A DNA stretch of 46,464 nucleotides, from positions 170,972 through 217,435 of the forward strand of contig NZ_JASISQ010000007.1 of the NCBI RefSeq assembly GCF_030063205.1, in the 5' to 3' direction. Shown piece after piece: positions 1 through 22,382 of this stretch (position 1 is its first letter; each line of letters opens with the position of its first letter). The notes beneath the pieces were generated by a model, which saw nothing but the letters and a program-made list of their open reading frames with translations, was not told the DNA's origin and made no database searches. The stretch comes from Arthrobacter antibioticus. Its GTDB lineage: Bacteria; Actinomycetota; Actinomycetes; Actinomycetales; Micrococcaceae. The position numbers and the translations under genes were made by a program.

Positions 1-30
1 GGGCACAAAGGCTTTGAGTTCGATTTCGTC

Positions 31-202
31 TTAATTGCTATCCCACCGGCCGATAAACAAATCATCGCTACGATCCACAGCCTCCGCCGCGGCTTTTTCG
101 ATCCGATGCCGGGCCGCCGCATGGGCCGCGTGTGCGAGGTGGGGCTTATGTGCGGGGCACCACCAACGTCGTGCCGTGGGGGTGTGGCCGCCTCGCCACG
201 AC
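31..202 (-). other. possible 3' remnant of an unidentified gene
   Basis: Downstream of the res-like gene one minus-strand frame stays open to a stop near 31. It reads a coherent-looking peptide with WWCPAHKP, an Ala/His/Arg-rich helix and the end FIGRWDSN. The frame runs back into the 3' end of the res-like gene, so no independent start is visible. It could be the tail of a gene whose 5' part was lost when the defence operon was inserted, or chance coding in GC-rich DNA. I do not recognise a family. Confidence 0.2.
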
Positions 203-2800
203 TTAATGGAACCCTTCGAATTCGACGGCAAAGTCCGATCTGTAAAATTCCATGGCAGGCTTGTCCTCGTAGAGCACTCCGTCACGGACAGCGGGAATCG
301 TCATGTCTAGAACCCGCATCGAGCTCCCCGCCATGGCGACAGCCTCAATCCGGTGAAATGCATCGCCGAAATCCTTCGCGAACTCTGCGAGGGCCTTCAG
401 TTTGATTACCGCATCGTCGAGATGCGTTCCGTGTGGGTCTACGATCGATGCCTTCACCTCTCCGCGGACCTCGTGGAAGAACACGAAGTCGGGGTGCATG
501 CTACGCCAGTTACCTTGTGGGTCACGGTAGGCAATTCCGAGCGAATCTACCGCCGAACGCGGAGGGTTTCTGTACCAGGCAAGGGCCCCTGGCCGCTTGA
601 GCTCGACGTCCACCACTTTCCGTTCCCACGCATTGAGGGACGACAATGGAAACAACCCCTCTTCGTCCGACATTAGGTGAAGGGTTGCAAGAGGCGCCAA
701 AGCGATTTGGTCATCAGAATCGAGTGTCTGATAATCCTCCATTCGAGAACGAGGCCTCCCCAATTCGCCCTTCTGAGGCAGAATTGTCATGGCTCGGATC
801 TCTTCATAGTCCTGCTGGCGTACGTCGGGCAGGGACTTGATCGATACACGATGCTGCGCAAACCATCGGTCGACCAGCTGGCTGGCCTCAATATCGACTT
901 TCTCGCGGATCTCTTTGATCATGCTTAGCGCCGCGGTCTTGACGTATGCGTCCCGCAATCCGTCGTCGTCCGTCTCGTCAGTGCCCGCAAGGTGATTAAC
1001 ATATGACTGGGCGATATCGGCACCGAACGCCTTCTTAGCCTCCTCAAAGGCCGAGCGAATAGCTCGGTCGTCGGCGCGCATCGAGAAGTCACGATAACTA
1101 AGCTTGGTAGACCCTGAGGTGCCCGAGATCTGCTGCACGTTGACTCGCCACACGTCGTCGATCTGCTTGTCGAGTAGTTGTTGGTATCGAGCAGAATAGC
1201 CGTCGAGCACTGAGTGCATCTCCTCCTCCGCGTCAGCTAAGGCACGGTGTTGAACACCGTCCATCGCCAAGGCTTGCGCGAGAGCGACCATTCGCTTCAC
1301 TGGGCGAGCACCGCGCTTCGGAAGCGTCTGCGTCGGCAGGGTGTCCCAGACCTCCCAGACAGCCTCCGGGATATCTTGGTTCGGTCGCAGCTCTCGCCCG
1401 TCGAGCAAGATCTTCTTGCCTCCGACACCGCCGGGCATCTCCTCGAGTTGTCCCGTCAGGTACCGAACAACTTGGCCGGCGGTCGTGCGGTCGAAGAACG
1501 GGAGGATGCATTCCACTGAGTTGAGTGCCTCGTCTCCAGGCACACGACGGGCCAGCGGGCTTCGCACCATTCTGCCTAGGAGCTGCGTGATGTGAGTACT
1601 GTCTTTCGCTGGACGGAACGACACCATCACCTCTGCACGGGGGCAGTCCCACCCAGTCGAAATCGCGTCTTTCGCGATAAGCACACGGATGGAAGACGTA
1701 TCCTGTACGCGCTGCGGCTCGATCCATTCAACGTCCCAGCCTCCGAAGTGTTGACGGGTGTGCTCGCCAAACACGTGGGAGACGTTGCCGCTATATAGGT
1801 CGGGCATGACTTCAGCTATGGTATCGAGCGCCCGACCGATCGCTTCATGGTCAGGAGTATTCGGTGTCTGAAGTACGAGCAACGGAATGACTCTTTCGGT
1901 GAGGCCCTGAGCCTGCGCATAGTCGGCCCACCGATCGGCTGAAGCAACTAACTTCTGTGCCGCAAGCTTCACGAGCGTTGTGTCGAAATTTCCTGCTTCG
2001 TTGGGGATGTCAAGACTGACAACGTCTTTGACGAGCCCAGACTCCTGCACTCGGACTGGATCCACCATGACTGCGGGGAAAGCACGCCGATCCTTGGAAG
2101 CGTCAGCTTCCCCCATTGCCCTGTTGAAGCGCTCGATGGTCGCCGAAATTCCCCACACGATAGGGACAGATGGATAGCCTGAATGCCCCTGAACGAGGCG
2201 ACGCACGAGGGTAGTCTTGTCACGACTGGTAGTGGTATTGAACCCACGATGCGCCTCATCGAGCACGAGATAGAGGGTGAGATCATCGTCCTGGATTGTG
2301 TTGGAGATCGTTTCCCAGAGCGTGTAACCCTGCAGATCTGGAACTCCGACCGCCGAGATATCAGTTTGATTCTCATCTGTAACAATGTGGCCGCGTGTGA
2401 GCTTCGAAGTCTTCGACAATTTTTGCGTGTTGAGGAAGTACACGCGGCCTGGATCCAACTTAGGCTTGGAGAACGGCGGCTCGATGGTAACGAGGTCGGA
2501 GGAGGTGAACTTCTCCGATGCGTCCATTAGCCGCATTCTGGTCTGGTCGTTCAGGTTCGGGTCGTCCGAAAACCAAATGACCACGGCTCCTTCGTCTTGC
2601 TCGATGTTGAACTTTTCAGATCCATAAAACAGGGCCTCAATCACCGCGGCCGCTATTACGGTCTTGCCCGCACCTGTTGGAGCAGTAAGCGCCAACGACG
2701 TTTCGATTCCGTCACGCTGCCAAGAGGTACGCGCTCGTTCGAGGGAGGTCAGCAAGTCATCAACGGCGTCTTCTTGATAATCTTTTAGGGTAAATTTCAC
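203..2800 (-). CDS. type III-like restriction subunit Res (SF2 helicase-nuclease)
   Basis: 865 residues from a GTG start. The N-terminal half is an SF2 DEAD/DEAH translocase: Walker A APTGAGKT at about 40-47, DEAH at 181-184, and QLLGRMVR as motif VI. Near the C-terminus a PD at about 770-771 followed by EVK at 781-783 fits the PD-(D/E)XK endonuclease domain of type III Res subunits. The length is near the family norm of about 900-1000. Known Res proteins cut DNA only in complex with Mod, using ATP. The GTG start overlaps the stop of the methyltransferase gene by four bases (GTGA), so the two are translationally coupled. It is the last gene of the four-gene operon. The domain call is firm. 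Whether the system acts as classical type III restriction or as part of a larger complex with the two upstream genes is open. Confidence 0.88.
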   Translation of the reverse strand: MKFTLKDYQEDAVDDLLTSLERARTSWQRDGIETSLALTAPTGAGKTVIAAAVIEALFYGSEKFNIEQDEGAVVIWFSDDPNLNDQTRMRLMDASEKFTSSDLVTIEPPFSKPKLDPGRVYFLNTQKLSKTSKLTRGHIVTDENQTDISAVGVPDLQGYTLWETISNTIQDDDLTLYLVLDEAHRGFNTTTSRDKTTLVRRLVQGHSGYPSVPIVWGISATIERFNRAMGEADASKDRRAFPAVMVDPVRVQESGLVKDVVSLDIPNEAGNFDTTLVKLAAQKLVASADRWADYAQAQGLTERVIPLLVLQTPNTPDHEAIGRALDTIAEVMPDLYSGNVSHVFGEHTRQHFGGWDVEWIEPQRVQDTSSIRVLIAKDAISTGWDCPRAEVMVSFRPAKDSTHITQLLGRMVRSPLARRVPGDEALNSVECILPFFDRTTAGQVVRYLTGQLEEMPGGVGGKKILLDGRELRPNQDIPEAVWEVWDTLPTQTLPKRGARPVKRMVALAQALAMDGVQHRALADAEEEMHSVLDGYSARYQQLLDKQIDDVWRVNVQQISGTSGSTKLSYRDFSMRADDRAIRSAFEEAKKAFGADIAQSYVNHLAGTDETDDDGLRDAYVKTAALSMIKEIREKVDIEASQLVDRWFAQHRVSIKSLPDVRQQDYEEIRAMTILPQKGELGRPRSRMEDYQTLDSDDQIALAPLATLHLMSDEEGLFPLSSLNAWERKVVDVELKRPGALAWYRNPPRSAVDSLGIAYRDPQGNWRSMHPDFVFFHEVRGEVKASIVDPHGTHLDDAVIKLKALAEFAKDFGDAFHRIEAVAMAGSSMRVLDMTIPAVRDGVLYEDKPAMEFYRSDFAVEFEGFH

Positions 2801-4938
2801 AGCGCGCTCCTGCTGGTCTCGATCTCGAAGTTTTGCAGGTAAGCCTCATACATTCGCACCGGTTCGACGCCATCAGGCAGTTCGCGCACCACTGATTCAA
2901 ACAAACGATCCTCGTCCGTCACGATAAAGGCAATCCGGATCCCCTCCAGTTTTGCGATGGCCTGGAGGAATGCTCCCGCCTGGTTTAAATCGACAATGAC
3001 GCCATAGGTATCTGTGACTTCCCATCCGGAGGAGATGTCGTCGATGCGACGACCTTCGGCGCCCGCCCTCAACCAGAGCAGAGGTGCGATTTTCGCGAAC
3101 TCGCGATTGGAGGAAACACGTAGCGGCGCCTCGTATGTAAGAGTGAAGAACTCGACGTTTTCTTCGAATCCGTCAGCCATCGGGAACTCGTCCGTGAATG
3201 TGTAGTCACCTTGGATCGGATTCCCAGACGGAGTCGTGCCCGTGACTGCGGCAGCGACTCGGGGTTTTGTTATGTAATCGCAGATACCCCACTGTTCCCA
3301 CTCATCGTCACCGGGCCGAAATCCTTCACGCCGGAGCCGTAGCTCTTCACTCTCACTTGCCTCATTGTTTGTGATACTAATAGAACGCCTCCTGCCACTA
3401 TCCTGCCGGTTAAGACGCGCGACCGCGTGCGCCGTCGTCCCGGAACCTGCGAAGAAGTCGACGACAATTGCGTCGGGCTTGTCTCCCACGTACAAACGCA
3501 AGGCATCTTCAACTGCGTACAATGACTTCGCAAAATCGAATGCGACTCCGGGGAGCAACTTGGCAAGAATCCCGGTGCCATGTTCACTCGCACTGTGAGC
3601 TGCACGGTGCCACAATGTGCGGGGGGCTGATTTCTTGTTGGTAGCGTCTGACCATTCAACAATCATTGCCCCCTGCGAATCCCGCCCAGTCTCAACAATT
3701 TCACCATTCTTGAGCTTTTCTAACATCGGTTCGGTGAGATACCAGAGAGGGAACTCTCCCCGTTCAATTCTTACCCGTCCAGTCTTGACGGCACCTTGTG
3801 AAAATAGTTCGTCAAACGATTCTTTGATAACTGACCAGCGGCCGGGCGTTCCGTTGGGGCGAGGAGTCGGCCAAACGGCGACAGTGCCGGCCGGAGCAAC
3901 AATGTCAAGCCCGTCGTCACCGTCAGGAGGAACTTCACCCGAACTATGAATACTTCCGTCAGCTGTACTTATGAATATCGGATAGTACGCTCCGGGCGAC
4001 TTTGAACGAACGCCGTTTGCCCCCGTTCGAGTCAAGCCTCTCCAACGCACACGAACGCTATCGGTCGCAGGAGGCTCACCAAGCATCGGATCAAATACAC
4101 GCGCGGGCGCGGCATCACCAAATGCGACGAAGATGAGGTATTCATCAACTCTCGCGAACCCATTTTCCGGAGTTCCTTTTGGATTAATCGACACAGAAAT
4201 CGTCGATATTCGACCTTCCGGGAAGAGCTGTTCTATTAATAACAAGAGCCTAGGGAACTCGTTCTCGTCGATCGCAACTATCAACACAGAATCGAGGGGG
4301 TTCAGAAGCCCTTTTGCCAGATGCAGCCGCCGCTCCATGAACGCCAACCATCGAGAATGGCGGTATAGATCCTCACTGTCAACGTAGTCGTTGTTATACT
4401 TCCAGTCCTTCGCTCCTGTGTTGTATGGCGGGTCGATATAGATTGCGTCAACCTTTGCACGATGAGTAAAGAGAAGTGTCTGGAGAGCATGGTAGTTCTC
4501 AGCATTAATGACAACCTGGTAGGGCTTGTTTCCGCCTCGCTCCACCTTGCCAGTCGAGACGAGGCCTGGATAGATGGGATCCCGAAATTCTGCGACCACT
4601 ACCAGATCCTCAACTAGTTCTTCTTTGAGTTCCGCTGTGCCGTCAATCGATTGGAGAGACGCAGTGCGGAGGTCCCCGCCATCTTTCAAGATTGCAAGGA
4701 CACGCCACAACGTACCGTCGCCCGAACTCGCCTTCGATCCGCGTGGAGGGAGGATGCGCACCTTGTCGCCGCGCCGTACGGGTCGTCCTGGGAGTTGAAC
4801 AGCTTCTGGCACATGGCGCTCGAAATTCAGTCCAAACGCGCGTCGCCCGGCGAGGGCGTCTACCTCGCGCTTCAAATCTTTTGCGAGGGCGGGGTCGCTG
4901 TTTTCGAGCCGCCTCAGCAGATCATTTAGCCGGGACAC
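2797..4938 (-). CDS. type III-like adenine-specific DNA methyltransferase (Mod)
   Basis: 713 residues. The catalytic motif DPPYNTG lies at 169-175 and the SAM-binding motif FAGSGTT at 496-502. This order marks a beta-class N6-adenine methyltransferase, as in type III Mod subunits. Residues 1-120 form an extra N-terminal region with a basic GDKVRILPPRG stretch. The central part (about 240-450) should hold target recognition. The GTG start at 4938 has AAGGAG five bases upstream. The gene overlaps the Res-like gene by four bases and follows the SF1 helicase gene by about 54 bp. In type III systems Mod supplies specificity and methylates one strand, protecting host DNA. It could instead be the modification arm of a Hma-like or DISARM/BREX-like system. 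The recognition site cannot be read from the sequence. Confidence 0.9.
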   Translation of the reverse strand: MSRLNDLLRRLENSDPALAKDLKREVDALAGRRAFGLNFERHVPEAVQLPGRPVRRGDKVRILPPRGSKASSGDGTLWRVLAILKDGGDLRTASLQSIDGTAELKEELVEDLVVVAEFRDPIYPGLVSTGKVERGGNKPYQVVINAENYHALQTLLFTHRAKVDAIYIDPPYNTGAKDWKYNNDYVDSEDLYRHSRWLAFMERRLHLAKGLLNPLDSVLIVAIDENEFPRLLLLIEQLFPEGRISTISVSINPKGTPENGFARVDEYLIFVAFGDAAPARVFDPMLGEPPATDSVRVRWRGLTRTGANGVRSKSPGAYYPIFISTADGSIHSSGEVPPDGDDGLDIVAPAGTVAVWPTPRPNGTPGRWSVIKESFDELFSQGAVKTGRVRIERGEFPLWYLTEPMLEKLKNGEIVETGRDSQGAMIVEWSDATNKKSAPRTLWHRAAHSASEHGTGILAKLLPGVAFDFAKSLYAVEDALRLYVGDKPDAIVVDFFAGSGTTAHAVARLNRQDSGRRRSISITNNEASESEELRLRREGFRPGDDEWEQWGICDYITKPRVAAAVTGTTPSGNPIQGDYTFTDEFPMADGFEENVEFFTLTYEAPLRVSSNREFAKIAPLLWLRAGAEGRRIDDISSGWEVTDTYGVIVDLNQAGAFLQAIAKLEGIRIAFIVTDEDRLFESVVRELPDGVEPVRMYEAYLQNFEIETSRSAL

Positions 4939-4992
4939 GGCTCTCCTTCATCGGGAACGGATTTGGTTTTAATTCTTCCAGCTGGAGGCCTA

Positions 4993-6519
4993 TCACTCGT
5001 CATCCGACACATCAATTGTGCTACGCGCAAATGTCGCGAGGATACGTGCGTGAGTCTGCCGCGGCAGTTGCCTAGTGCCCGGCTCGCCGAAAGGTGTACC
5101 CGGACGCGCGGGCGCCGCGGCCAGCAATTGATCGAGCCCCGGTCGTGTCACTATCAACAGCCCATGTGTGGCCCTCGTACACGTTACGGCGAGGCGCCCG
5201 AAGGCCGAGTTGAAAGCATCTAGGTCAGTCGCGCCGTTGAGGGGGTGAATTGCGACAGTGATGCCGTTCGTCTGGCCCTGCCAAGAGTCGACCGTCGATG
5301 CGACGATGTCCCGGTCGGTCAGATCGTATTTTTTCTGGAGACGCTCGACTGCCTCAATAGCATCGTCTACCGATTGGTTCCGCGTCGCCAGGATCGTGAC
5401 CATCGGGTCCATGTGCTCCCCACGGGGGCGTGTGGTCTCCCATGTTCCAGTCGAACGCCCGGAGACATCGTTGTCGTAAACAGCCGATATAAGCGATGCT
5501 TCAGCCGCAAAGAACTCCTCCAGCAGAGCCTCCACGAGACCCATCAACGGAAGGTCGATGTCGGCGGCTTCTGGTTGGGGCAGTCCATCGACTTCGAGCA
5601 GGGTCGGCACGCCTGTGCCCACCTGCTGCCATATCGCGGCTGGGTCTTCGTCCATCGAGCCGATGTCAATCGATCGATCGCCCGGTCCCGCGACGCAGTC
5701 GAGCGACTCCCATTCCGGGTAGAAGGCCCTCCATAACGCGAGATGTCCGACCGCTGGGCGCCATACGGCCGGCAGTTCCTTGGACCAAGTACGCGGATCT
5801 TTGTTGTAGTCGGTGGGCCAGGCGCGATATGGGTTGTACCCGGGGTCGCCACGCCAGGGATTTTCGCCGATTTCGAGTGGAGGCAGCTGTCCGACGTCGC
5901 CCACACCCACCCAAAGCGGCGCAAGCTTCGTTACCTTGTCGAAGAGATGGTGTGCGATCTGCCAGGCCTCGTCAACGAACAACAAGCCAAAGGGATTGGC
6001 TCCGTACGTTGCCGCGCCAAAGTGGTCACGCAAGCGTTTGATCTCTCCCATCGCGCCAAAGCGCGCAACAGTAGCAATCACAACCTTCACAGTATTTGGC
6101 AAGTCCTTTGTGGAGGTCACTACTGTTGCGGATTCGAGCACCTCAGCCGGCATTTCATCGTATGCAGCTTTACTTGCCAAGAGAGCCACCGCGTTCTTGC
6201 CTAGCGACTCCCCCAGTGAGATAGCGAGCGGCCGCACTTGTTTGTTCGTGAACGCCGTGACCGCGATGCGTTCATCTCGCGGATGCTGTGCTGCCTCGAC
6301 CACCAGTCGCTTGAGCGCATACGACTTGCCAGCGCCGGCCGCTGCCTTGAGCAGCATGCGTTCCATCGGCGATACGCCCGACAGCATGTCTGCCAATTCG
6401 ACACTAGCTTCATCGGCAACACGGCTGTTGAGGACCGCGGCTTCTTCGTGGTGCACGCTGCTGTTAGCGACAACTAGCGGGTCAGCGAAGTGGCTCGCCT
6501 CTTTATGTTCCACAGTCAC
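4993..6519 (-). CDS. SF1 superfamily DNA/RNA helicase of a defence operon
   Basis: 508 residues, GTG start. It carries the main SF1 helicase motifs: Walker A AAAGAGKS at about 59-66, Ia TAFTNKQ near 88-94, DEAW as Walker B at 183-186, motif III GDVGQLPP at 207-214, motif V around STVDSWQGQ and motif VI TCTRAT near 446-451. It is compact, with no recognisable extra domain. Its start overlaps the stop of the nuclease gene by four bases (GTGA), which implies coupled translation and a likely helicase-nuclease pair in the manner of AddAB-like enzymes. It lies directly upstream of the Mod and Res genes on the same strand. The helicase assignment is strong. The role in antiphage defence is inferred from context. 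Confidence 0.8.
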   Translation of the reverse strand: MTVEHKEASHFADPLVVANSSVHHEEAAVLNSRVADEASVELADMLSGVSPMERMLLKAAAGAGKSYALKRLVVEAAQHPRDERIAVTAFTNKQVRPLAISLGESLGKNAVALLASKAAYDEMPAEVLESATVVTSTKDLPNTVKVVIATVARFGAMGEIKRLRDHFGAATYGANPFGLLFVDEAWQIAHHLFDKVTKLAPLWVGVGDVGQLPPLEIGENPWRGDPGYNPYRAWPTDYNKDPRTWSKELPAVWRPAVGHLALWRAFYPEWESLDCVAGPGDRSIDIGSMDEDPAAIWQQVGTGVPTLLEVDGLPQPEAADIDLPLMGLVEALLEEFFAAEASLISAVYDNDVSGRSTGTWETTRPRGEHMDPMVTILATRNQSVDDAIEAVERLQKKYDLTDRDIVASTVDSWQGQTNGITVAIHPLNGATDLDAFNSAFGRLAVTCTRATHGLLIVTRPGLDQLLAAAPARPGTPFGEPGTRQLPRQTHARILATFARSTIDVSDDE

Positions 6520-9248
6520 TCCAAGTCGTCAATCGTCAGGTCAATTGGCACAGGGAGCGGGCCCAGTTCGAATGGGTTTCCGGCCGCGTCGCCGTCCGAC
6601 GAGACCTCGAACCCGTCGTCGTCTCGTACCGGTGGCCACGTCTCGGGATTAAGTTCACCCCGTGCCCGTCTGTCGGCGAGCAGATCTGCGAACTCGGCCT
6701 CACGGTCCTCATGCGGACGACAACACCACAGGTGCGCCTGAGGTTCGTCGCCGTAAGATTCCGGTAGACAATCGCCCTTCGGCGCCGCCGTCATGTCTGG
6801 CAGCGGTTTTTGCACAGAAAGCCACCTGTTTCCCTTCAACGCGGAAAACCACGCAAAGTCTGCAACCACCAATTCATCGCCCCTCGCCACCACGGGAACG
6901 ACTTGCGGATCCCAGCACAGTCGCTTCGGGAAGTTATCGTCGATTAATTCAAGCGGCCCTATCGCAAGACCATCAATCTTGAAGGTTCCACGCCCTTTCG
7001 AATCGACTGAAATGCCGGGCATTTCAGCGCACGCCTCGCCATTGTGGGCAAGTAGCACCACACGTGATTCGGCAGTGATGCGACGTGAATCTACGTCGAT
7101 CACCAGCGGGTTGACAGACACAACCTTTGCAAAGGAAACGAAGCGGTTGCCAGCGTCGGACGCGAGGTCGCGTGCCGCTTGTGGATTCGACAGCGCAAAT
7201 AGCTGAGAGGCGCAGGTTCCGTCGCTCTCGATCATCGGCACGAGAGAGTTGCGCCAGGGTCGATATGTACGGCCAAAGCGCACTAGATCAGACGCATGCA
7301 GCGTAAGACGCCGCCGCCACACCACCTGCGCATCGGACTCAATCGCACGGTATACCGCGCGCAACGTGGACGATTGAAACCCCTCGAGAGAGTCCAGTGC
7401 CCGTTCAAGGATCTGTGCCTTGTACTCCAGTTCCTCGGTTACAAGGTCCTTGTACCGCACGGGATAAGCGGCGGGTGCGTCGTTCGACTTGCCAGAACGA
7501 CCCACGAGCGCGTTGTGGATCGCATCGGACGCCGCGGTCGTCAACCTGCCTCCTGCAGTGTGCACAGACTCCTCGATCTCATCAGCGAAAGACCGATGTT
7601 CAATCGGCGCCTCTCCCCGAGCCTCGGCCCAACCGACGAGATAGTCGAGGCGACCCGAGTTCATACTCGGCCCGCCGGCGACGATTCGATGTGCGAGGAC
7701 CTTTCGCAGATCGATGACAGTCGATCGCAGCTGGAACGCACGGGCACGGTCTTCTTCGAGCAGCAATGCGATGGCAGTACGCTCTACTTCGGAAATCGCA
7801 CGCGGGACCGTTGCTGGATCGCCATCGTAGGTCAAGACCGGACGTCCCTGTTCCTTGTCGCGTTGCCATCGTAGGCGGCTCAGTTCAATGCCCGCGAGGT
7901 TGTCCGCTATGGATACAAGTACGTCCGCCGTGTCACTGTCAGGCACTAAGAGGTGCACAGAATCGGGTATTCCGTTCCCTGCAGCCTTACGCTGATCACG
8001 CATGGAGTGGTTCAGCGCGTTACCGACGCGCCTCACGATCAATCGGCGCGCTTCGAGCGACTGAGGGTTATCGAAGATCGTGTATTCCCACTCTCCTCGT
8101 CCATCGTCTGAGACGCGCTGCACGCCGATACCGTGAACATCGAGCGGTGCAGAATCTGATTTGACGATCACGACGTTGACTGTTCCCGGCATCCCGGCCT
8201 GGTCGACGCGTCGTTGTCCCGTCAAGTGCGCCACGCCTGTTAGGGTTGCTGCAATATTCGCTGCCGTGGATGCCGGAACGCGACCAACCTCGGTGACACC
8301 GTCGATGAGACCCAACGCCTGGCCACGCATGTCGCGGCCGACGCCAATCTCAATCAACAGGTCTGAGGGGTTTTGCGAGCTGCGCAATTCATTGCGACAG
8401 TAGGAGAATAGCGTGCAGCTCGTACACGAAGCTGGGTCGAATGTCGCCTCGAGATGTTCAACAAGCGACCGTACGTCCTGGCCAGGTTCGTGACCGGATT
8501 CATTAGCTTCGCGGCGACGTTCCTCGATGCGCAACCTTACTTCTTCTTGGTAGTCGTGCAGGTTTTCTACTACCGGTTCAGGCTGGAAGAACGCATTTTT
8601 AGGCACTACGAGAACACCGAAAGTGTGCACCCCCATGCCTTTGGGAAGGCGCGACCACACTCGGGCTGACTCCGCTCCAACTGCGACCTGTAGGAATCCT
8701 TTGAGCATGCGCTCGTCATTGATGCGTGACCGTATACGTTCATAGTCTTTTGCATCGCCCATCACTAGCCAAGATGAGGTCTTGTCACCTAGCGCTGGTG
8801 CAACGATTGCGAAGTCGGGCATCACATCAGTTGCTCGCGTCCCTTCGAACCCGACGAACGGCACCGCCAGCTGGAATACGAGAGTGGCTGCGCCAGTCTT
8901 GATGGCACGGTCGTGCGCTGCTTCGAGCACTCGTGCCGTCCGGTCAACTTGTGAGTTGGCGTCCACGGTGACGACCTCAGTCGGGCGGTCGAGAGACAGT
9001 GCGCCTACGGTACGTGTTGCAATCTGCCCGGCAAATTTTTCATTGCGAACCATCCGTTCGAACGTCATCGCACGCATCCATCGCGCCTGTGGAATCGTTC
9101 CCATAGTATCTGCGACGCCCACCGACTTCGCAAGCTTACGACGAGTCATCCCGGTAACTAGTGGATCGGTGCCACGAAACCGTCCACACGCCGCATGAGT
9201 TGATGACGCAACAGCGCCAGAGCCACCTCCCACAACTTCGAGCGCCAT
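6516..9248 (-). CDS. large RecB/Cas4-like nuclease with probable Fe-S cluster
   Basis: About 910 residues. Near the N-terminus P144-D145 is followed by D165-A-K167, the spacing of a PD-(D/E)XK nuclease. One early cysteine (C21) plus a later C-x2-C-x5-C (275, 278, 284) matches the four-cysteine iron-sulphur staple of AddB, Cas4 and related RecB-family nucleases. The remaining roughly 600 residues are unassigned. I chose ATG 9248 because GAAAGG lies six bases upstream. A GTG at 9266 would add six residues but has no Shine-Dalgarno sequence. It is the first gene of the defence operon and overlaps the helicase gene by four bases. Likely role: DNA cleavage together with that helicase. The nuclease assignment rests on motif reading by eye, so it is moderate. 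Confidence 0.65.
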   Translation of the reverse strand: MALEVVGGGSGAVASSTHAACGRFRGTDPLVTGMTRRKLAKSVGVADTMGTIPQARWMRAMTFERMVRNEKFAGQIATRTVGALSLDRPTEVVTVDANSQVDRTARVLEAAHDRAIKTGAATLVFQLAVPFVGFEGTRATDVMPDFAIVAPALGDKTSSWLVMGDAKDYERIRSRINDERMLKGFLQVAVGAESARVWSRLPKGMGVHTFGVLVVPKNAFFQPEPVVENLHDYQEEVRLRIEERRREANESGHEPGQDVRSLVEHLEATFDPASCTSCTLFSYCRNELRSSQNPSDLLIEIGVGRDMRGQALGLIDGVTEVGRVPASTAANIAATLTGVAHLTGQRRVDQAGMPGTVNVVIVKSDSAPLDVHGIGVQRVSDDGRGEWEYTIFDNPQSLEARRLIVRRVGNALNHSMRDQRKAAGNGIPDSVHLLVPDSDTADVLVSIADNLAGIELSRLRWQRDKEQGRPVLTYDGDPATVPRAISEVERTAIALLLEEDRARAFQLRSTVIDLRKVLAHRIVAGGPSMNSGRLDYLVGWAEARGEAPIEHRSFADEIEESVHTAGGRLTTAASDAIHNALVGRSGKSNDAPAAYPVRYKDLVTEELEYKAQILERALDSLEGFQSSTLRAVYRAIESDAQVVWRRRLTLHASDLVRFGRTYRPWRNSLVPMIESDGTCASQLFALSNPQAARDLASDAGNRFVSFAKVVSVNPLVIDVDSRRITAESRVVLLAHNGEACAEMPGISVDSKGRGTFKIDGLAIGPLELIDDNFPKRLCWDPQVVPVVARGDELVVADFAWFSALKGNRWLSVQKPLPDMTAAPKGDCLPESYGDEPQAHLWCCRPHEDREAEFADLLADRRARGELNPETWPPVRDDDGFEVSSDGDAAGNPFELGPLPVPIDLTIDDLE

Positions 9249-9877: not shown

Positions 9878-10435
9878 ATGGAAACTACAACTTGCAGGCT
9901 CTGCGGAATCGCCTTTGAGCCGCGTCGCACAACTCAGAAATACTGTTCACCCACTTGCTCACGCCGGCACCGAGATCGAGAGTGGCGAAACCGGCACCAC
10001 GCCGACACTACCCAGACACTGCGAGCGCAGCTTGAATCTGCAGTCATCGAGAACCGCGTCATCCTGGAAGTAACGATGGCCAAGTTTCAGATGCAGCTGG
10101 ATGCGGCAGAACGGAAGGCTCGGGACCGACTCACATTTCAGGCCAACCGGAATGAGCGTGAGACCGATGTTCTACGCACCCGATTGCGCGACCTTGCGTC
10201 AATCAATGTCGAAATCGCCTGTGAAGTCCCGGAACTGAAGGCCCAGATCACCGAGCTGCAGCTGGAGAATGCTCGCCTGATCCATGGCCAGCGCGCCGAC
10301 TTTCAGGAGCTCACGCAGATTGCAGGTCGGCTGATGGAGCTGTGCTCGCGGCTGGGTCTCCCTCTGGACAAGGCTACGAAGGAGATCTTTCAGCGTCGTG
10401 GTTGGCAGACCAGCATTCTGGTACCCGAGCAATGA
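9878..10435 (+). CDS. zinc-finger/coiled-coil protein upstream of relaxase
   Basis: 185 residues. The N-terminus has C-R-L-C and, 13 residues on, C-S-P-T-C, a small treble-clef zinc finger of the type that binds DNA. From about residue 45 to 150 the sequence is rich in Gln, Glu, Leu, Arg and Ala with few helix breakers, which suggests a long coiled coil. Its stop overlaps the relaxase start by four bases (ATGA), so the two are co-translated. By position it could be a relaxosome accessory protein that recognises oriT or recruits the relaxase. I do not recognise a named family. No clear Shine-Dalgarno precedes the ATG, so the start is moderately sure. Confidence 0.65.
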   Translation: METTTCRLCGIAFEPRRTTQKYCSPTCSRRHRDREWRNRHHADTTQTLRAQLESAVIENRVILEVTMAKFQMQLDAAERKARDRLTFQANRNERETDVLRTRLRDLASINVEIACEVPELKAQITELQLENARLIHGQRADFQELTQIAGRLMELCSRLGLPLDKATKEIFQRRGWQTSILVPEQ

Positions 10436-13400
10436 CTGTCTCCATGTCGCGACTTACGGCAGCTGCTGGGCTGAAGTATCTGTTGAAGACGACTATGCAG
10501 GACGACCTGGTCAAGCCACTCAATGACGCCACCAGCTATTACGTCAAAGCTGGGACACCGCCAGGCAAATGGCTCGGGCAGGGTCTAGCTGGCATCGATC
10601 GCAGTCCGCATCAAGTTGTGACTGGAGCTGATGCCAAAGCGGTGTTCTCACTCGCGGAGCATCCCGACAGACAAGTGGTACTTGGCCGCGCCCATGGCCA
10701 AACCACGGTCGCCTACCGGAATGGCGAAGAACAACAGCGCCATGCCGTGGCTGGGTTTGACCTGACGTTCAGCGTCCCCAAATCTGTCTCTGTTTTATGG
10801 GCTCTCGCGGACAAGGATATCAAGCAGCAAGTCGTAGCTGCGCACCACCGTGCGGTGGAGTCCGTGCTTGCCTGGCTTGAGAATGAGGTCATCCACACAA
10901 GGACTGGGCGGAACGGGGTGGCTCACGTTGGTACAACAGGTGCCGTTGCTGCGGCATTCGATCATTGGGAGTCCCGGGCTGGCGATCCACAACTTCACAC
11001 TCATCTTGTCATTGCCAATCGCGTTCAACGCAGTACTGACGGTGCATGGACTACCGTCGACTCCCGAACGCTCTATAAGGCGGTCGTCGCAGCAAGCGAA
11101 CACTACAACGGACTGCTTCTGGACGAACTCCAGCGGGTTCTGGGCACAGTGACAGACTTTCGCTCCCCCACTAACGTAGAGCGCAATTCGGGTCTCGAAT
11201 TGACCGGAATCGATCGTGAGCTCATCAAGGAGTTTTCCAACCGGAGCAGACTCATCGATGCTGAAACAGACAGGCTCACACTGCTCTGGACTGCCGATCA
11301 CGGCAAACGACCCAGCTCCACCACCGTCGTCAGGCTCCGCCAAATTGCCACGTTGACGACACGACAACCTAAGGACGAATCCCCACGACCGTTGACAGAA
11401 CTTCGCGCAAGCTGGCAACAGCGTGCCATCGCCACAGGAAAAACTCCCAGGGCCGTCGTCGAGAATACGATTCAACGCTCCAGACAACGGCCTGTCAGAT
11501 ATTCAGACGTCTCTTTGGAATGGAATGATGCGGTCGCGACCATGGTCAGGGCTGGAGTCGCCCAGCGTCGGGCCACGTGGAACCGCTGGAATCTCCTCGC
11601 AGAATCCGAGCGTGTCTGCGCCGGCATCCGTTGCCAGTCCCCCGCCGACCGCCGGCTCCTGATCGACTCAGTCACTACTGCTGCAGAATCCCAATCAGTA
11701 CCACTCAACAACACCCGTTACGGCCTTCCTGTGACTGCTGCAGATGATCTGAAATACGCTGGTCACTCCGTCTTTGACTTCCCCGGAGCTCGTCTCTACA
11801 CGGATGCCAGCACCCTAGCCAGTGAGCAATTTGTCGTGGAAGCCCGGAGCACACCAGATGGGCCTACTGTCCGTGTTGCTGCAGCATGCGATCAACTCCT
11901 CAACTACCGCCACACGGCCGGCTACGGGTTAGCCCCAGACCAACTCGCCGCTGCGGAAAACGTGCTGTGTAGCGGCAACAAGCTTGACGCCATTGTGGGC
12001 CCTGCCGGATCCGGGAAAACCACCACTATGGCTGCCATCAAGGTCGTGTGGGAAAACACCCATGGTGAGGGCAGCGTCGTCGGACTTGCCCCAGCCGCAG
12101 CCAGCGCCGAAGTTCTTGGCAAAGAGCTCGGCATTGCGGCAGAAAACGTCGCCAAGTGGCTCTATGAAAGCGCAGGACAAGGAGCAAACAACCGTGCCGA
12201 CCGGTTCCACGCTCTGGAATCAATGCCACGAACCAGCCATACAGCTGTTGCAGCACAACTGGCAGCGTTGTCACTCCAACAGTCCATCTGGGGCTTCAGG
12301 AAGGACCAGCTCGTCATCATCGACGAAGCGTCCATGATCTCCACTATCCAACTCGCCGGTCTGGTCCACCAAGCCCAAGATGCAGGTGCCAAACTCCTAC
12401 TAGTAGGCGATCCCGCTCAGCTCGACGCAATTGACGCCGGTGGAATGCTCGGGTGGTTGCACCGTGACGGCAAAGCCGTGGAACTCACCACCATTCACCG
12501 CTTCACCCACAGCTGGGAGGGCCCGGCGTCGCTTCAACTGCGCGAAGGTAACATCGACGCCGTCGACCTTTACTCTGCTCACGAGCGCATCCGGTACGGC
12601 GATTACACGGACATGGTTGAAAATGCCTACCGGAGCTGGTCTGCCGATCTGGGCTCGGGTAGTTCTTCCATCCTGATCGCCCCGGACAACGATACCGTTA
12701 CCACCCTGAACGAGCGCGCTCACGCCGAGCTCGTTGAATCGGGTCGCGTCGATGCCGAGCACACCGTCGCCCTCGCCGATGGTCTAGCTGCAGGCCGCGG
12801 CGACACCATCATCGCCCGAAAAAACAACCGCACGTTGATTGACAGCCACGGCGAATATCTCCGCAATGGCACTCTCCTGCGGATCACCAAGCGTCCATGC
12901 AGGGACGGAACCGTCGCCGCCCGGCGTACGGACACCGGCGCCAAGATCATGCTCAGCTCCGTGTATCTCGGCACCTCCGCCGAGCTCGGCTACGCAACCA
13001 CCGCCCACCGCTCCCAGGGCATCACCGTGGACACCAGCCACATCGTCCTGACACAAGGCTGCCTCACCCGCGAGCTGTTCTACGTCGGGATGACTCGCGG
13101 CCGCAACAGCAACACCGTCTACGTATGCGAGTCCGACCCCGCCCTCGACGAACCACAGCCGGGTGGCCCAACCGCCAGTTGGCGACAGATCCTCGGCGAA
13201 GTCCTAGCCGCTGAGGGAGCCGAGCGTTCTGCGCACGAAGTTCAAGCTACGGAAATTGCCAAGGGCGACACCCTCCAGCGACTTGCGGCCGAGTACGACT
13301 ACCTTGCCCAGCTAGCCGCCGCCGAAAACCTGACCCTGGCTATCTCAAAGGTGATGCCCGGCGTCGTCACTCACATTCAGGAATCGCCGTCTTGGGGCGC

Positions 13401-13983
13401 TGGGGTAGCCGCCTGGCGACGAGCAATGTCTATCAATCCAGCTGCTGCTCAAAGAGTTCTGGAACGTGCCCTGAGGCATCCTAGCGATGCTCAGGATCAA
13501 ATGGCAGTCCTTCATGCACGCCTTCGCCAGACAGCCAGCAATAGCCCCTCGGAAGCTTCTCCGGATGTCCTTGACGAGCCGCTATTCACCGAGCGCGCGG
13601 ACCTTGCAGACTTGATCGGCCAGGTACGCGCCCGCACGATCAAACGCCGTGACCGAGTGGCTAGGGAAGCACTCAGCGTTGGATTTCCGTGGGTCCACGC
13701 GCTGGAAACAATTCTCGGAACTACGGTAAACCCGGAGCATCGGGCTGAGACTGTCAGTGAGGTTGCGGCATTCCGCGACCGCTGGGAGATTGCCACCTCC
13801 ACAGATCCGCTTGGTGCAGTTCCCGCCAACTATGAGTGGGAACAGTCAGCCCAGCGAGAGTCCCTGCAGCGGCGGATTCAATCGCTGAACGAACACGCAC
13901 CTCGTTCGTTGGGGCAACGTGCGGCCGGACTGCCAGCACCGATTGTGCACCAACCCTTTATCCCTGTCGGACCCACGCTCTAA
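10432..13983 (+). CDS. MobF-family relaxase/helicase (TraI/TrwC-like)
   Basis: 1183 residues from the ATG that overlaps the preceding stop. An earlier in-frame ATG would overlap that gene by about 90 bp and is less likely. The N-terminal relaxase domain has Y16 and the pair Y36-Y37, as in TraI/TrwC, and the three-histidine metal site in the LHTH segment. The C-terminal half is an SF1B helicase with Walker A GPAGSGKT near 523-530, a DEAS Walker B and GDPAQLDA as motif III. The final part (about 930-1180) is helical and of uncertain role. The enzyme nicks oriT, stays linked to the 5' end and unwinds the strand for transfer through the coupling protein. Length and order are typical for MobF proteins of actinobacterial plasmids and ICEs. 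Confidence 0.93.
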   Translation: MTVSMSRLTAAAGLKYLLKTTMQDDLVKPLNDATSYYVKAGTPPGKWLGQGLAGIDRSPHQVVTGADAKAVFSLAEHPDRQVVLGRAHGQTTVAYRNGEEQQRHAVAGFDLTFSVPKSVSVLWALADKDIKQQVVAAHHRAVESVLAWLENEVIHTRTGRNGVAHVGTTGAVAAAFDHWESRAGDPQLHTHLVIANRVQRSTDGAWTTVDSRTLYKAVVAASEHYNGLLLDELQRVLGTVTDFRSPTNVERNSGLELTGIDRELIKEFSNRSRLIDAETDRLTLLWTADHGKRPSSTTVVRLRQIATLTTRQPKDESPRPLTELRASWQQRAIATGKTPRAVVENTIQRSRQRPVRYSDVSLEWNDAVATMVRAGVAQRRATWNRWNLLAESERVCAGIRCQSPADRRLLIDSVTTAAESQSVPLNNTRYGLPVTAADDLKYAGHSVFDFPGARLYTDASTLASEQFVVEARSTPDGPTVRVAAACDQLLNYRHTAGYGLAPDQLAAAENVLCSGNKLDAIVGPAGSGKTTTMAAIKVVWENTHGEGSVVGLAPAAASAEVLGKELGIAAENVAKWLYESAGQGANNRADRFHALESMPRTSHTAVAAQLAALSLQQSIWGFRKDQLVIIDEASMISTIQLAGLVHQAQDAGAKLLLVGDPAQLDAIDAGGMLGWLHRDGKAVELTTIHRFTHSWEGPASLQLREGNIDAVDLYSAHERIRYGDYTDMVENAYRSWSADLGSGSSSILIAPDNDTVTTLNERAHAELVESGRVDAEHTVALADGLAAGRGDTIIARKNNRTLIDSHGEYLRNGTLLRITKRPCRDGTVAARRTDTGAKIMLSSVYLGTSAELGYATTAHRSQGITVDTSHIVLTQGCLTRELFYVGMTRGRNSNTVYVCESDPALDEPQPGGPTASWRQILGEVLAAEGAERSAHEVQATEIAKGDTLQRLAAEYDYLAQLAAAENLTLAISKVMPGVVTHIQESPSWGAGVAAWRRAMSINPAAAQRVLERALRHPSDAQDQMAVLHARLRQTASNSPSEASPDVLDEPLFTERADLADLIGQVRARTIKRRDRVAREALSVGFPWVHALETILGTTVNPEHRAETVSEVAAFRDRWEIATSTDPLGAVPANYEWEQSAQRESLQRRIQSLNEHAPRSLGQRAAGLPAPIVHQPFIPVGPTL

Positions 13984-14012
13984 ACTGGAAGTCGAAAGGA
14001 AGTCGTGCGGTC

Positions 14013-14528
14013 ATGAACCCAATGATCAGACCAACAGTTCCCTCGACGTCACTCGTCATGTGGAGCGTCGCCATTGGCCTGTGCACGCTCTACTTGGTGC
14101 CAGCAACACTCGCGAACTGGCCAGCACCACCATGGCTGATAACCATCACCACGTTGCTTGCAGGTTTCTCGGTGGCGCTGGCACTTCGCTGGGCGCTCAA
14201 AGTACGCCGTGCCCGGGCTTGGGATGTGAGTGCTCAGTTGCTTTGGCAGCAGTTTGAGGCTGCCCGTCTTGCCGGCGGAACGACAACCGAGGTCACAGTC
14301 CTCAGCGTCCAAGAAGTCCAGCCCACTGGTGCTTGGGTGACCATAAACTGGGACCAGTTCGGATATACACAGCCAGCATGGATTGAAGGGAGGGGCGGAA
14401 CATACTGGCCCGGCTCAGTCGTTCTCATTACCCCCGACCCAATGCAGGTGCACGTCGGCCAGCCCTGGCCACCGACGTATAGAATCGCCGAAAACGACTG
14501 CCGCGCTATAGCCCCTTTGTTGAGATAA
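14013..14528 (+). CDS. small membrane protein downstream of relaxase
   Basis: 171 residues. Two hydrophobic segments lie near residues 12-32 and 38-56. A soluble tail follows, with repeated Trp and Pro and no catalytic motif I recognise. ATG 14013 has GAAAGGAAG upstream at 13994-14002. It begins 29 bp after the relaxase stop on the same strand and so probably shares its transcript. By position it may assist conjugation at the membrane, but this is only inference. A longer frame starting at 13836 overlaps the relaxase and is rejected. Confidence 0.6.
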   Translation: MNPMIRPTVPSTSLVMWSVAIGLCTLYLVPATLANWPAPPWLITITTLLAGFSVALALRWALKVRRARAWDVSAQLLWQQFEAARLAGGTTTEVTVLSVQEVQPTGAWVTINWDQFGYTQPAWIEGRGGTYWPGSVVLITPDPMQVHVGQPWPPTYRIAENDCRAIAPLLR

Positions 14529-14641
14529 CTGCCGAATTTCTCAGAGTCTCGGACGGCTCGATAAGAACCTATCGATCCAGTACGGCCACCGCTTCGAAGC
14601 ACTCGCCTGCTTCGATAGAAGCGAACATGTGGAGTCGTGGA

Positions 14642-15490
14642 TCATTCCTTCACAGTTGCGGCAGGAGGCTCGTCAAAACTAGCCTCCTCAAGTAACCAAA
14701 AGGGACTCTCGTCGAAGTCGCACTCGCATGAAAGCAGTTGACCGCTACAACGAGGGCACTCTTCCTTGTCGCAGCTCGGTCCATGAAACTCGCCGATGGC
14801 TGCGGCGCAATCAGGGCAGTAGTCAAGCGGGGAATCGTGCTCCATCCACGTAGACCAATGTATCTCCGCGCTCCAACAAAGCCGTGAGAAATCGGAATTC
14901 TGATACTCGAACTTCGTAGTTGACTGGGCGGCAATCAAACGCCCCGGCCATCTCCGATGCATTCGACGCCCGCGGAACTCAATGAATTCCTTCTTGAAGG
15001 ATTCAACCAGCGCCATCGCAGTCTTCACGTGGGCATCACTGATTCGTTCGGAAAGCGATCCGTCGAAATGCTGATCGTGGAAGCTATCGAGAAACTCAAA
15101 AATGAGGAGGTAGTTCTGTCTTACCTCTTCGGCGATGAGATCTACTTCATAGTGGGTTATGTTATTCCGCCATCGAATCGCAGTCTTGATGGCGTCCATT
15201 TCCCACTGCTGAACACCCACCCGTATGTTGGACAAACGGGTGAGTGCCGTGTCCAGCGAAGCAGTCTTGCCCGGCCGATCAACGTTCTCCCAAATTAACA
15301 GGTCGTGCTCATCGCGCAGGCGCTGCTTGATCACCAACTCCACCGCGTGAACGAGATTGAGGACAGCAAACTTCCATCTTTTGGGGTCTGCCGATGCGGC
15401 CTCTACATAGGCTAAGGACTCATTAAGGGAATCATAAGCATTCTCAATCAGGGACAAACGGAGTTGTGCCCGCTCACGGCTGTCGTTCAT
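14642..15490 (-). CDS. HEPN-like protein with C-terminal zinc ribbon
   Basis: 282 residues. The first about 170 residues are predicted all-helical and contain R108-N-N-I-T-H113, the R-x4-H motif of HEPN RNases and HEPN toxins. The C-terminal part has CPDC, then a C-x4-C-x2-C cluster and CEC, consistent with a zinc-binding module of two knuckles. HEPN domains often cleave RNA in abortive-infection and toxin-antitoxin systems. Here the gene lies directly downstream of the Mokosh-like pair on the same strand, with a 172-bp gap that may carry its own promoter. It could be an accessory effector or an unrelated cargo gene. The HEPN assignment comes from one motif and helical context, so it is moderate. 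No antitoxin partner is visible beside it. Confidence 0.6.
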   Translation of the reverse strand: MNDSRERAQLRLSLIENAYDSLNESLAYVEAASADPKRWKFAVLNLVHAVELVIKQRLRDEHDLLIWENVDRPGKTASLDTALTRLSNIRVGVQQWEMDAIKTAIRWRNNITHYEVDLIAEEVRQNYLLIFEFLDSFHDQHFDGSLSERISDAHVKTAMALVESFKKEFIEFRGRRMHRRWPGRLIAAQSTTKFEYQNSDFSRLCWSAEIHWSTWMEHDSPLDYCPDCAAAIGEFHGPSCDKEECPRCSGQLLSCECDFDESPFWLLEEASFDEPPAATVKE

Positions 15491-15662
15491 GGCAACTTTC
15501 TAGTAGGACTGGTGCAGTGAAGAAGCCCCTATTAACGATTGGGACAACGGCCGATCCCTGTCGGAACAATTTTGGATCGAGAAAGAAATCTACTCTTTTA
15601 ACACTCGTAGTGGAATTTCCCCAAAGTAGCACACCGTGATTCCGGGCTAAACTGTGCACATG

Positions 15663-16991
15663 TTAGGAGGAACGCTGAGCATCGATAAGTTCAAGATATC
15701 GCTTGTACTCTTTCTCGACACGATCGGGGATACCCACAAGTGTCCCCTCCTCCATGCGATATGTCCGTCCTGAATCTCCCCGGAAGGACAGCCAATTGAA
15801 ACTAGTACTGACCCAGATATCATCGAATATGAGTATTTTGGCGTGGGTGTTTCTAACGCGCACAAATGTAAATTTTTCATATCTGCCTGCCAGATTGGTT
15901 AACCTCTTGAGGGCAAATTCGTCAGAGCCACTGTCATCGTCACCATATCCGTGTGCAATAGTCACCGTTACTCCAGCGCGGAGCCGTTGCTCTAGTTTCG
16001 CGACGAAATCGGTGTTGACCACAGCTTGACGTACCCATGGCGCAATTAATAGGATCCGCTGCTTGGCTGTCGATAGAGCATCGGCCAGCAGATCGGCGTG
16101 CTCGAAGACGCTAACACTCCTAACGAGGGCGGTGGGCGAGCTATCGATGCCTGTACGATCCATGCCAAGCAGTTCTTCTTGGGTGCCGTTGTTGCTAGGT
16201 TCAGTTCTCAGGGCCTCCAACTCTGGCTCCAACATTGGCCGTTCGGCCGGCTGTCCAAACGACAAACCCAGCCTTTCAACGGCACCGATACTGTCAAGGG
16301 CTAGTCCGTGGGCAGTCGCCAAGTCGTCTTCGATGCAAATCGCGAGTTCAAGTTCTTGACGGTTTTCATCCGCATAAACCAGCATCTTTACGGGGAGGTA
16401 TCGATGCTTCTTTGCTGCCACCTTGTGAATCCTGAGTACTTGAAGTCGGTCGCCCTTGAAGAGTGCATTAAAACTTGAAGGACTCACATCGTCGATTCCA
16501 ATGTGAGCGTTTCTAGCCGCTGGAAGGATTGTCATGCCCTTCTCCTGGGCGTCTTTTTTCTCGATCAAGTCGCGTTCTTGGTAATCAGCAAGAGTCCAAG
16601 ACAAACGATCGAATGCAACTGGCAGCTGCTTCAAGACGGGCTGGGTTGCAGCCAGCTCACGGACAACGTCAGCTCCAATTGGCGTCAACGCCAGCCGCCC
16701 GTCTCTGTCTCGCCGCCGCAGATGGCCTTCACCTAGCTGCGCAGCAGCTGCTTCTAGGACGTGTATAGTTTCCAATCCCAGATATGCGGCTATGTCATCT
16801 GGGTTGTCGACACCCAATTTAACGAACCGCATAGTAAATGCTTCTGTTATGAGTAGCTCCTTCTTCTCCTGCGCAAGTACGTCGGATCGCAGAACAGTGA
16901 CTGGAATGGCGGCATTCTCGACAGCAATGAGCTGCAAGCCTGGCCTCGCGTCACCAAATCGACGTTGAAGTATTTGAAATTGTCTAGTCAC
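15663..16991 (-). CDS. mkoB: phospholipase D-like protein, Mokosh type I MkoB-like
   Basis: 442 residues, GTG start. The C-terminal third carries one HKD-type motif, H383-A-K385 followed by D and S-F-N near 399, then strands typical of the PLD fold. The N-terminal part has winged-helix character and no second HKD motif, so the active enzyme is probably a dimer or the domain is a variant. The start overlaps the stop of the kinase-helicase gene by eight bases. In type I Mokosh systems a kinase-helicase gene (mkoA) is paired with a PLD nuclease gene (mkoB), which is the arrangement here. The predicted role is nucleic-acid cleavage once the helicase partner senses phage. The name is given by architecture, without a profile search. 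Confidence 0.75.
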   Translation of the reverse strand: MTRQFQILQRRFGDARPGLQLIAVENAAIPVTVLRSDVLAQEKKELLITEAFTMRFVKLGVDNPDDIAAYLGLETIHVLEAAAAQLGEGHLRRRDRDGRLALTPIGADVVRELAATQPVLKQLPVAFDRLSWTLADYQERDLIEKKDAQEKGMTILPAARNAHIGIDDVSPSSFNALFKGDRLQVLRIHKVAAKKHRYLPVKMLVYADENRQELELAICIEDDLATAHGLALDSIGAVERLGLSFGQPAERPMLEPELEALRTEPSNNGTQEELLGMDRTGIDSSPTALVRSVSVFEHADLLADALSTAKQRILLIAPWVRQAVVNTDFVAKLEQRLRAGVTVTIAHGYGDDDSGSDEFALKRLTNLAGRYEKFTFVRVRNTHAKILIFDDIWVSTSFNWLSFRGDSGRTYRMEEGTLVGIPDRVEKEYKRYLELIDAQRSS

Positions 16992-20382: not shown

Positions 20383-20644
20383 TCGGTCCCCTGTCGCGAT
20401 GGTGCCAGTTGTGATCGGACCCTACCCACAGTCATTCGTGAATTGAGTCACCAAAGAGCTTACGCTGGCGTCACCCCGCGCAGTACCAACGCGCATCAAG
20501 TCACTGTGTGCGAATCACCGCCCATGTCGAATGCCTCAGCGCGGCTAATCCGCCTCATTCGAGTGTAGCCATAGAGGCACCATTGGCTGCCTGAGCGACA
20601 CGAAGAGAGCTGCAATTGGAGTGCCGAAGCCGCGTTTCAGCTGG

Positions 20645-21808: not shown

Positions 21809-21899
21809 TGCCACTACCTCCACAATCACACCCTTAAGGCGTTAACACCGGATACTTGTTCATGGTGATCTGAGCGCTTAACGGCATGTTGAATCCTCA

Positions 21900-22382
21900 T
21901 CAGTCCGATTCAGGAGCCCAGCTGGGATTTCCAGGGCCATCCGGCGGCAATGTCCTGCGCGCAGGCACCCTGTGGGCTTGCAGACCCACGCACCCTGCAG
22001 TCCGGGTATGTTCACGCATTCGCTCAATACCGGACGTCAGCCGTTCGTGGAATGTGATGGGGCCGAAGCCACCGTCGTCCTCGGTGTAGGAGGCCTGCTC
22101 CGCGCGTTGAAGTCCGTAGAGTTCGGCAACCATGTCACTGTGCTTCCACCAGCAGTCTGGAACCACCGAGGTTGGCAGGTGATATGTGTCATTGAGCCAT
22201 TGGACCCACTGGCCAAGATGCTTCCAAACGGCTTCGGCAGTGCGCGGATCCATGTCACGCCAGCGGTACGTCACGGGGATTCGGTTGGAGCGCCTGCCTT
22301 CGGTGGAACCGAACAGCATCGCAGCAAACTCATCCTCTGCTCCTCCACCCACCGTGTATTCAAAAGACTCTTCCTCGTCCAT
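21900..22382 (-). CDS. DUF4913-like protein of conjugative elements
   Basis: 160 residues. The central region (about 35-110) is Trp-rich (YRWRDMD, VWKHLGQWVQWL, CWWKHSDMVAEL) and matches my memory of DUF4913 proteins, which are found almost only in actinobacterial plasmids and ICEs. AGGAG lies seven bases before the ATG. It starts 12 bp after the coupling protein gene and is therefore in the same operon. No enzymatic motif is visible. The function is unknown, and a role in transfer or element maintenance is implied only by co-occurrence. Confidence 0.75.
   Translation of the reverse strand: MDEEESFEYTVGGGAEDEFAAMLFGSTEGRRSNRIPVTYRWRDMDPRTAEAVWKHLGQWVQWLNDTYHLPTSVVPDCWWKHSDMVAELYGLQRAEQASYTEDDGGFGPITFHERLTSGIERMREHTRTAGCVGLQAHRVPARRTLPPDGPGNPSWAPESD

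Follow-up and report, generated by a model that had tools for sequence, protein, structure and literature searches.

A four-gene operon of Arthrobacter antibioticus, at 203–9248 of the 46,464-nucleotide stretch analysed here (the window; contig positions 170972–217435 of a 3.79 Mb genome, locus label C19), appears from its sequence to join type III-like restriction–modification (R-M) genes to a two-gene unwinding and cutting pair resembling eukaryotic Dna2. This pair is a separable module shared among restriction systems, yet it is still tied to the Res lineage found at this locus. The four open reading frames all lie on the minus strand in the order P1, P2, P3 (Mod) and P4 (Res) (Table 1); P1 and P2 overlap by 4 bases, P2 and P3 are separated by 54 bases, and P3 and P4 again overlap by 4 bases, in full agreement with an earlier note, made from the sequence alone, that had described four coupled genes with two such overlaps. 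The mod gene is directly followed by a res gene, the adjacency by which a type III system is recognized. That note had also proposed to look for the same gene order elsewhere, and it does recur, in 14 of the 57 loci returned by a genome-wide contig search with P1 and on two Rhodococcus plasmids, so the arrangement is not due to chance. The junction between P3 and P4 is −4 in 15/15 tabulated relatives, and that between P1 and P2 lies between −4 and +4 in all 14 measurable four-gene relatives. A promoter and terminator scan gave a result at chance level. What the computation shows directly is the domain content, the invariance of the catalytic residues, the conservation of the operon and its lineage-specific association.

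P1 looks like an iron–sulfur-type, Cas4/MGME1-like PD-(D/E)XK nuclease, albeit with a weak fold match, and the nuclease-like part would comprise about the first 300 residues. C21, C275, C278, C284, P144, D145, K167 and Q187 are invariant in 56/56 aligned rows, and D165 is present in 55/56. One cysteine stands before and three after the PD...DxK core, and the Cas4, AddB and Dna2 nucleases have the same layout. The AlphaFold2 model of P1 (54 rows; mean predicted local distance difference test score (pLDDT) 88.8) has MGME1 as its top Foldseek match in the PDB (E 0.009, probability 0.98), together with Cas4, lambda exonuclease and RecE, all of them weak and none at E ≤ 0.001. The RecB/Cas4-like nuclease with four cysteines that the earlier note had read in the 910-residue protein is supported by the motif set and, weakly, by the fold, but only a part of that protein looks like nuclease. 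In Pfam, PADLOC and NCBIfam, P1 has no match at E ≤ 0.1, and the Cas4 family model (PF01930) is therefore not matched at this threshold. The nearest named relative found is from Paeniglutamicibacter quisquiliarum (87%), and no relatives were found among viral contigs. Compared with viral structure models, the P1 model matches an uncharacterized Yasminevirus protein of 892 amino acids (778 columns, E 3e-8, template modelling score 0.35).

P2 is predicted to be a superfamily 1B (SF1B) helicase of the Upf1/Dna2 type, in line with the SF1 helicase of the earlier note. It matches AAA_30 and AAA_19 in Pfam, and G62, G64, K65, D183-E184, D208, Q211, R254, D411, Q414 and R449 are kept in 51/51 rows. 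The profile built from these 51 rows finds DNA2 chains at E 0.0017 and a putative deoxyribonuclease (9kwf_B) at E 1e-5, and the AlphaFold2 model (pLDDT 84.1) strongly matches IGHMBP2 (4.4e-15), Dna2 (1.3e-14) and Upf1 (4.9e-14) in Foldseek. Taken together, P1 and P2 look like a Dna2/Bad-type enzyme in two pieces, the likeness to Bad being drawn from its published description.

The assignment of P3 and P4 as a beta-class Mod and a type III-like Mod/Res is corroborated by family matches and motif order. Mod matches PF01555 (2.9e-17) and, over residues 1–706, the PADLOC model MTase_III (PDLC03645, E 6e-249), and its DPPY motif at 169 precedes an FxGxG-type motif at 494, as in the beta class. Between this Mod and that of locus L018, identity is 80% over residues 1–240, 32% over residues 241–440 and 75% thereafter, whereas Res is evenly conserved (90% overall, 87–92% across three parts); a drop confined to one stretch of Mod points to an exchanged recognition domain. 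Res matches PF04851 (5.3e-12) and, weakly, REase_III of PADLOC (1.7e-9), and carries GxGKT, DEAH, STGWD and QLLGR(M) in all or nearly all of 29 rows. The earlier note's superfamily 2 (SF2) motifs thus stand, but its 'PD-EVK' site does not: a D/E-x-K at 781–783 is present in 13/16 Res proteins of four-gene loci and 0/13 of two-gene loci (13/29 rows), whereas the D of PDF (770–772) and DPH (788–790) are invariant (29/29 each). The conserved C-terminal site of Res is therefore read, from the alignment, as a putative non-canonical PDF...DPH, with H where K is expected.

As in type III R-M systems, Mod precedes Res with a 4-base overlap, Mod is of the beta class with a variable middle, and Res is an SF2 protein; unlike in these systems, there are two extra upstream genes and a non-canonical conserved motif at the Res C terminus. 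P2 shares its helicase fold and a profile match with eukaryotic Dna2, whose nuclease has one plus three cysteines, as in P1, but the locus differs from Dna2 in the P1/P2 split and in the extra central region of P1. The helicase half of the TM0106/TIGR03491 RecB-like nuclease-helicases also matches P2 (HHalign probability 96.3, E 1.8e-9); these proteins are single-chain, however, and a separate TM0106-type protein is encoded elsewhere in the same genome. P1 gives no significant match to that family (no NCBIfam match at E ≤ 0.1; HHalign E 0.073). Type ISP enzymes are single-chain R-M enzymes that adjoin the same pair in other genomes; none was matched in the genome of the window itself.

The operon contains a type III-like system, and the closest described precedent that we saw is the Bad proposal (PMC7430649). 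Bad is a Geobacillus DNA2-like helicase-nuclease whose gene lies beside a type III M gene; it is a 5′–3′ motor with an Fe-S nuclease, prefers 5′ overhangs and, from this one Mod neighbour, was proposed to represent a new class of restriction enzyme in which unwinding and degradation are simultaneous (PMC7430649). As described there, Bad resembles P1–P2 in its four-cysteine Fe-S-type nuclease, SF1 helicase and large central domain, and resembles this locus in the adjoining gene for a type III Mod-like methyltransferase. It is, however, one polypeptide, whereas nuclease and helicase are two genes in the window and its relatives; this locus also has Res, and P1 loci were found only in Actinomycetota. 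Hma, to which the earlier note had tentatively related the set, likewise combines a helicase and a methyltransferase in one operon, but its other parts are a 5-methylcytosine methyltransferase and an ATPase, named DUF499 in a later paper (PMC8565338, PMC12839542). The relation was abandoned, no Hma model being among the matches listed (0 for P1, 7 for P2, 5 for Res and the best 25 of 32 for Mod). No description of the four-gene set was found among the literature listed, as judged by title or abstract opening, with most subscription journals and bioRxiv outside its coverage.

The 57 loci all belong to Actinomycetota by their titles, and those in the tree also by their ranks. P1 and P2 are both whole in 52 of them, and L029, L054, L072, L073 and L074, where the pair is not whole, were left out of the counts. 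Within the available flank, this Mod/Res is the neighbour of 14 of the 52 whole pairs, and a type ISP enzyme (with Type_ISP_C, ISP_coupler and Mrr_cat_2 domains in one representative) that of 12; another Mod/Res (MTase_III 5.6e-241, REase_III match weak) lies beside 2, and the remaining 24 adjoin none of these. Counted among the 24 are L068, labelled type III in the P1 tree, whose contig ends inside Mod, and L035, where a 71-residue Mod piece remains. The pair thus occurs in 38/52 cases without this Mod/Res (one of them cut off inside Mod and one keeping a Mod piece), an outcome that the earlier note had named as contrary to its own view and that marks the pair as a shared module; 14 of these 38 adjoin another ATP-dependent restriction system. 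A system consisting only of a fixed set of four genes is ruled out, since the pair is separable. The partner labels can be placed on the P1 tree with 12 changes, against a shuffled mean of 26.1, and the starred branches imply at least 5 gains or losses for type ISP and at least 2 for type III. On the tree of the type ISP enzymes, those that adjoin the pair are interspersed with those that do not, which requires at least 4 gains or losses of the pair; one locus was entered twice in this tree (L160 = L181), and 'without' was mostly assigned from 1.5-kb flanks. P1 is rare and patchy, being whole in 5/297 genomes of the order, 7/394 of the class and 2 plasmids, with no match in the plasmids searched other than the two from Rhodococcus; the copy in G433, a fragment of P1 interrupted by stops, was not counted as whole. 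The seven whole copies of the class sample lie beside the clade Res (4), beside type ISP (2) or beside neither (1, G050).

The Res tree separates 16 four-gene from 13 two-gene loci in a clean split (Shimodaira–Hasegawa-like approximate likelihood ratio test (SH-aLRT) 100), and the Mod tree shows the same split with a support of 92. The four-gene Res rows came mostly from the P1 search, and hence a separate sample of full-length Res was chosen by Res alone from the order (297 genomes), the class (394 genomes) and plasmids. There, the pair adjoins 6/7 clade members (G000, G249, G491, G626 and the two Rhodococcus plasmids) and 0/15 outsiders (6 from the order, 2 from the class and 7 from plasmids), with a Fisher p of 9e-5, or 1e-3 without our own genome and one of the two near-identical plasmids. 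The earlier note's view that the pair is part of one system with Mod/Res accordingly gains support from the tie of the pair to this Res lineage, but most pairs lie away from this Mod/Res. G626 (L156) and L030 share one Res, and G249 and L022 are one locus. Weak, partial or <42% Res matches were left out, including the near-full-length ones in G276 (34%) and G180 (30%); plasmid neighbourhoods were examined for 7 of 26 other Res with ≥80% coverage and 36–49% identity; and at L139 the contig ends ~1.1 kb upstream of Mod, although the order sample yielded no P1 outside 5 genomes. Adding five Res proteins left the clade support at 100/100, with one member lacking the pair; L138 was dropped from this second tree for its long branch. 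Conversely, in the class sample 4/7 genomes with whole P1 have the clade Res, which 5 genomes carry (p 1.8e-7, or 8e-6 without our own genome). Type III therefore shows one long-lived association with the pair, in contrast to repeated gain and loss for type ISP.

With about as much confidence as doubt, we propose a type III-like R-M system served by its own split helicase-nuclease of the Dna2/Bad type, in which Mod/Res recognizes unmethylated DNA and P1–P2 degrades it. Enzymes of type III slide away from unmethylated sites once they have used ATP, and those of type ISP translocate; both kinds of partner cut unmethylated DNA and so would provide ends at which degradation by a Dna2-like enzyme could begin. 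The variable recognition stretch of Mod would determine where it methylates self DNA, and Mod–Res would find unmethylated sites and, after ATP-driven sliding or translocation, cut or nick. P1–P2 might then load on the freed strand, with P2 moving on single-stranded DNA, in the expected 5′–3′ direction, and unwinding, and P1 using its Fe-S nuclease to cut the strand that is displaced, such that the cut DNA would be destroyed instead of re-ligated. Complex formation, polarity, order of action and the defence function itself are what we infer from these data.

Several results weigh against this proposal. Of the whole pairs, 24/52 have neither a type III nor an ISP partner in the available flank, so P1–P2 can probably act without one. 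P1 resembles solved nucleases weakly (best Foldseek E 0.009); its profile has no match in the PDB at E ≤ 1, Dna2 chains included, and its comparison with TM0106 nucleases is not significant (HHalign probability 0.8%, E 0.073). Within the clade, the Res of G352 is without the pair; a transposase-like gene, as read from the sequence, lies upstream of Mod/Res there (L154:5823-7154), beside a UvrD-type helicase gene. In G141, a clade-like Res remnant of 70–80% identity (L183:8693-9650, Res residues 545–863), with a UvrD-nuclease remnant near it, has neither Mod nor pair; including it in the clade, as an eighth member that lacks the pair, weakens the association only slightly (Fisher 2.8e-4, or 2.5e-3 without our own genome and one plasmid).

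The unpartnered loci also suggest the main rival reading, which we consider possible but rather unlikely: an independent anti-phage helicase-nuclease with its own trigger (ends, flaps or replication intermediates) that is merely a defence-island neighbour of restriction systems. Apart from the 24/52 pairs without a type III or ISP partner, it is favoured by a scan for hidden partners (79/134 neighbour proteins at 22/24 unpartnered loci; L049, L068 and L013 left out), in which no PADLOC or Pfam family recurs more than three times (GmrSD-like 3, SMC/AAA-like 2, TPR 2), the other matches being mostly single and to unrelated families, with one AspBHI-type restriction domain among the best 25 families; three of the 24 unpartnered pairs adjoin a GmrSD-type protein. 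Genes of Zac, a separate PADLOC system, moreover lie near 9/57 loci. However, the tight operon with Mod/Res persists while P1 identity among relatives drops to ~50%, the pair is nearly confined to one Res clade, and its partners in several lineages are of the same mechanistic kind (type III and type ISP).

The DPH motif of Res, invariant in 29/29 rows where no D/E-x-K is kept throughout (0/13 two-gene, 13/16 four-gene), raises the question of which protein cuts. P1, with its canonical and near-invariant site, could be the main cutter, and Res mostly a switch or motor delivering P1–P2 in a methylation-guided unwinding nuclease; this would recall the suggestion of the Bad authors that a restriction enzyme might unwind DNA while degrading it (PMC7430649). 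We regard it as improbable: chromosomes and plasmids alike retain two-gene members with the same DPH, which makes it probable that Res cuts alone, and the E-x-K of 13/16 four-gene Res could be their site. Least probable of all is a repair or self-protection factor that clears restriction damage on the host or element instead of attacking, which would suit the roles of Dna2-like enzymes in end processing and flap removal (PMC7430649), but not the rare, patchy spread (5/297 order and 7/394 class genomes) or the presence on 2 plasmids.

Beyond the proposed split helicase-nuclease system of this locus, a wider and more speculative reading, which we hold to be doubtful as a whole, is a modular class in Actinomycetota in which an SF2 enzyme (type III or ISP) recognizes unmethylated DNA and passes it to a split motor-nuclease of the Dna2 type, common to these systems, for unwinding and degradation; in the type III branch, the pair would have become a lasting component of the enzyme, with most of the cutting done by P1 rather than Res. 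The role of bacterial Dna2-like enzymes in physiology is an open question, and the locus makes the question posed by Bad testable: it adds an instance in which Mod and Res are both present and the two catalytic halves are encoded separately, the four genes are mostly kept together in their lineage, and natural controls are at hand in the two-gene Mod/Res relatives and in the same pair with type ISP or with neither partner.

Table 1 Features of the operon and its surroundings in the window
Feature	Position	Strand	Description
P1	6516–9248	−	910 amino acids, ATG start (alternative GTG at 9266, 916 amino acids); nuclease, central region and beta-barrel
P1 residues 1–300	8349–9248	−	Nuclease domain: C21; P144-D145; D165-A-K167; Q187; C275, C278, C284; boundary by our own reading
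P1 residues 301–815	6804–8348	−	Central region; strands 704–813 read as beta-barrel; putative domains, from the model's secondary structure
P2	4993–6519	−	508 amino acids, predicted SF1B Upf1/Dna2-type helicase
P3/Mod	2797–4938	−	713 amino acids, beta-class N6/N4 methyltransferase
Mod residues 241–440	3619–4218	−	Hypervariable stretch, presumed target recognition domain
P4/Res	203–2800	−	865 amino acids, SF2 helicase-like ATPase, C-terminal PDF...DPH
Res residues 770–790	431–493	−	PDF-x15-DPH, including the non-conserved 'EVK'
Repeat-like sequence	1–170		Resembles a degenerate repeat of the UvrD-nuclease C-terminal end
Mobility genes	10342–28624		MobF relaxase, ArdC-like anti-restriction protein, TraG/TraD-like and TrbL-like genes
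Kinase–helicase gene and overlapping gene	15663–20382	−	1132-residue fusion of a protein kinase domain and an AAA_11/AAA_12 helicase; 442-residue protein

On the same contig, a gene for a UvrD-PD-(D/E)XK fusion protein that converges with Res (L016:7854-10760) lies to the left, where a 10-base N gap precedes the window. Such a gene is found near 11/28 partnered loci (type III or ISP) against 0/24 unpartnered ones (p 3.6e-4; 12/30 against 0/22 in a variant of the table that includes the window), and its product may be a fifth component. It occurs at L016, L018, L020, L021, L023, L031, L033, L036, L046, L057, L061 and L070, mostly convergent with the restriction genes. The repeat-like sequence at the left edge of the window, just past the N gap, is possibly an assembly artefact.

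Around other copies of the pair, GmrSD-type restriction proteins lie near it at L051, L053, L035, L031 and L070 (cluster c10). The Zac genes (ZacA, ZacB and ZacC in PADLOC) near nine of the 57 loci, and in addition at L013, are those of L013, L022, L030, L041, L043, L044, L045, L049, L069 and L073. At L073, a single open frame (L073:9623-11521) consists of an N-terminal piece of P1 and a C-terminal piece of Res, apparently the deletion relic of a four-gene locus. The mobility genes to the right of the operon place it beside or on a conjugative element. The kinase–helicase gene overlaps that of the 442-residue protein, which has a sub-threshold PLD-like match, and the two are possibly a second defence module.

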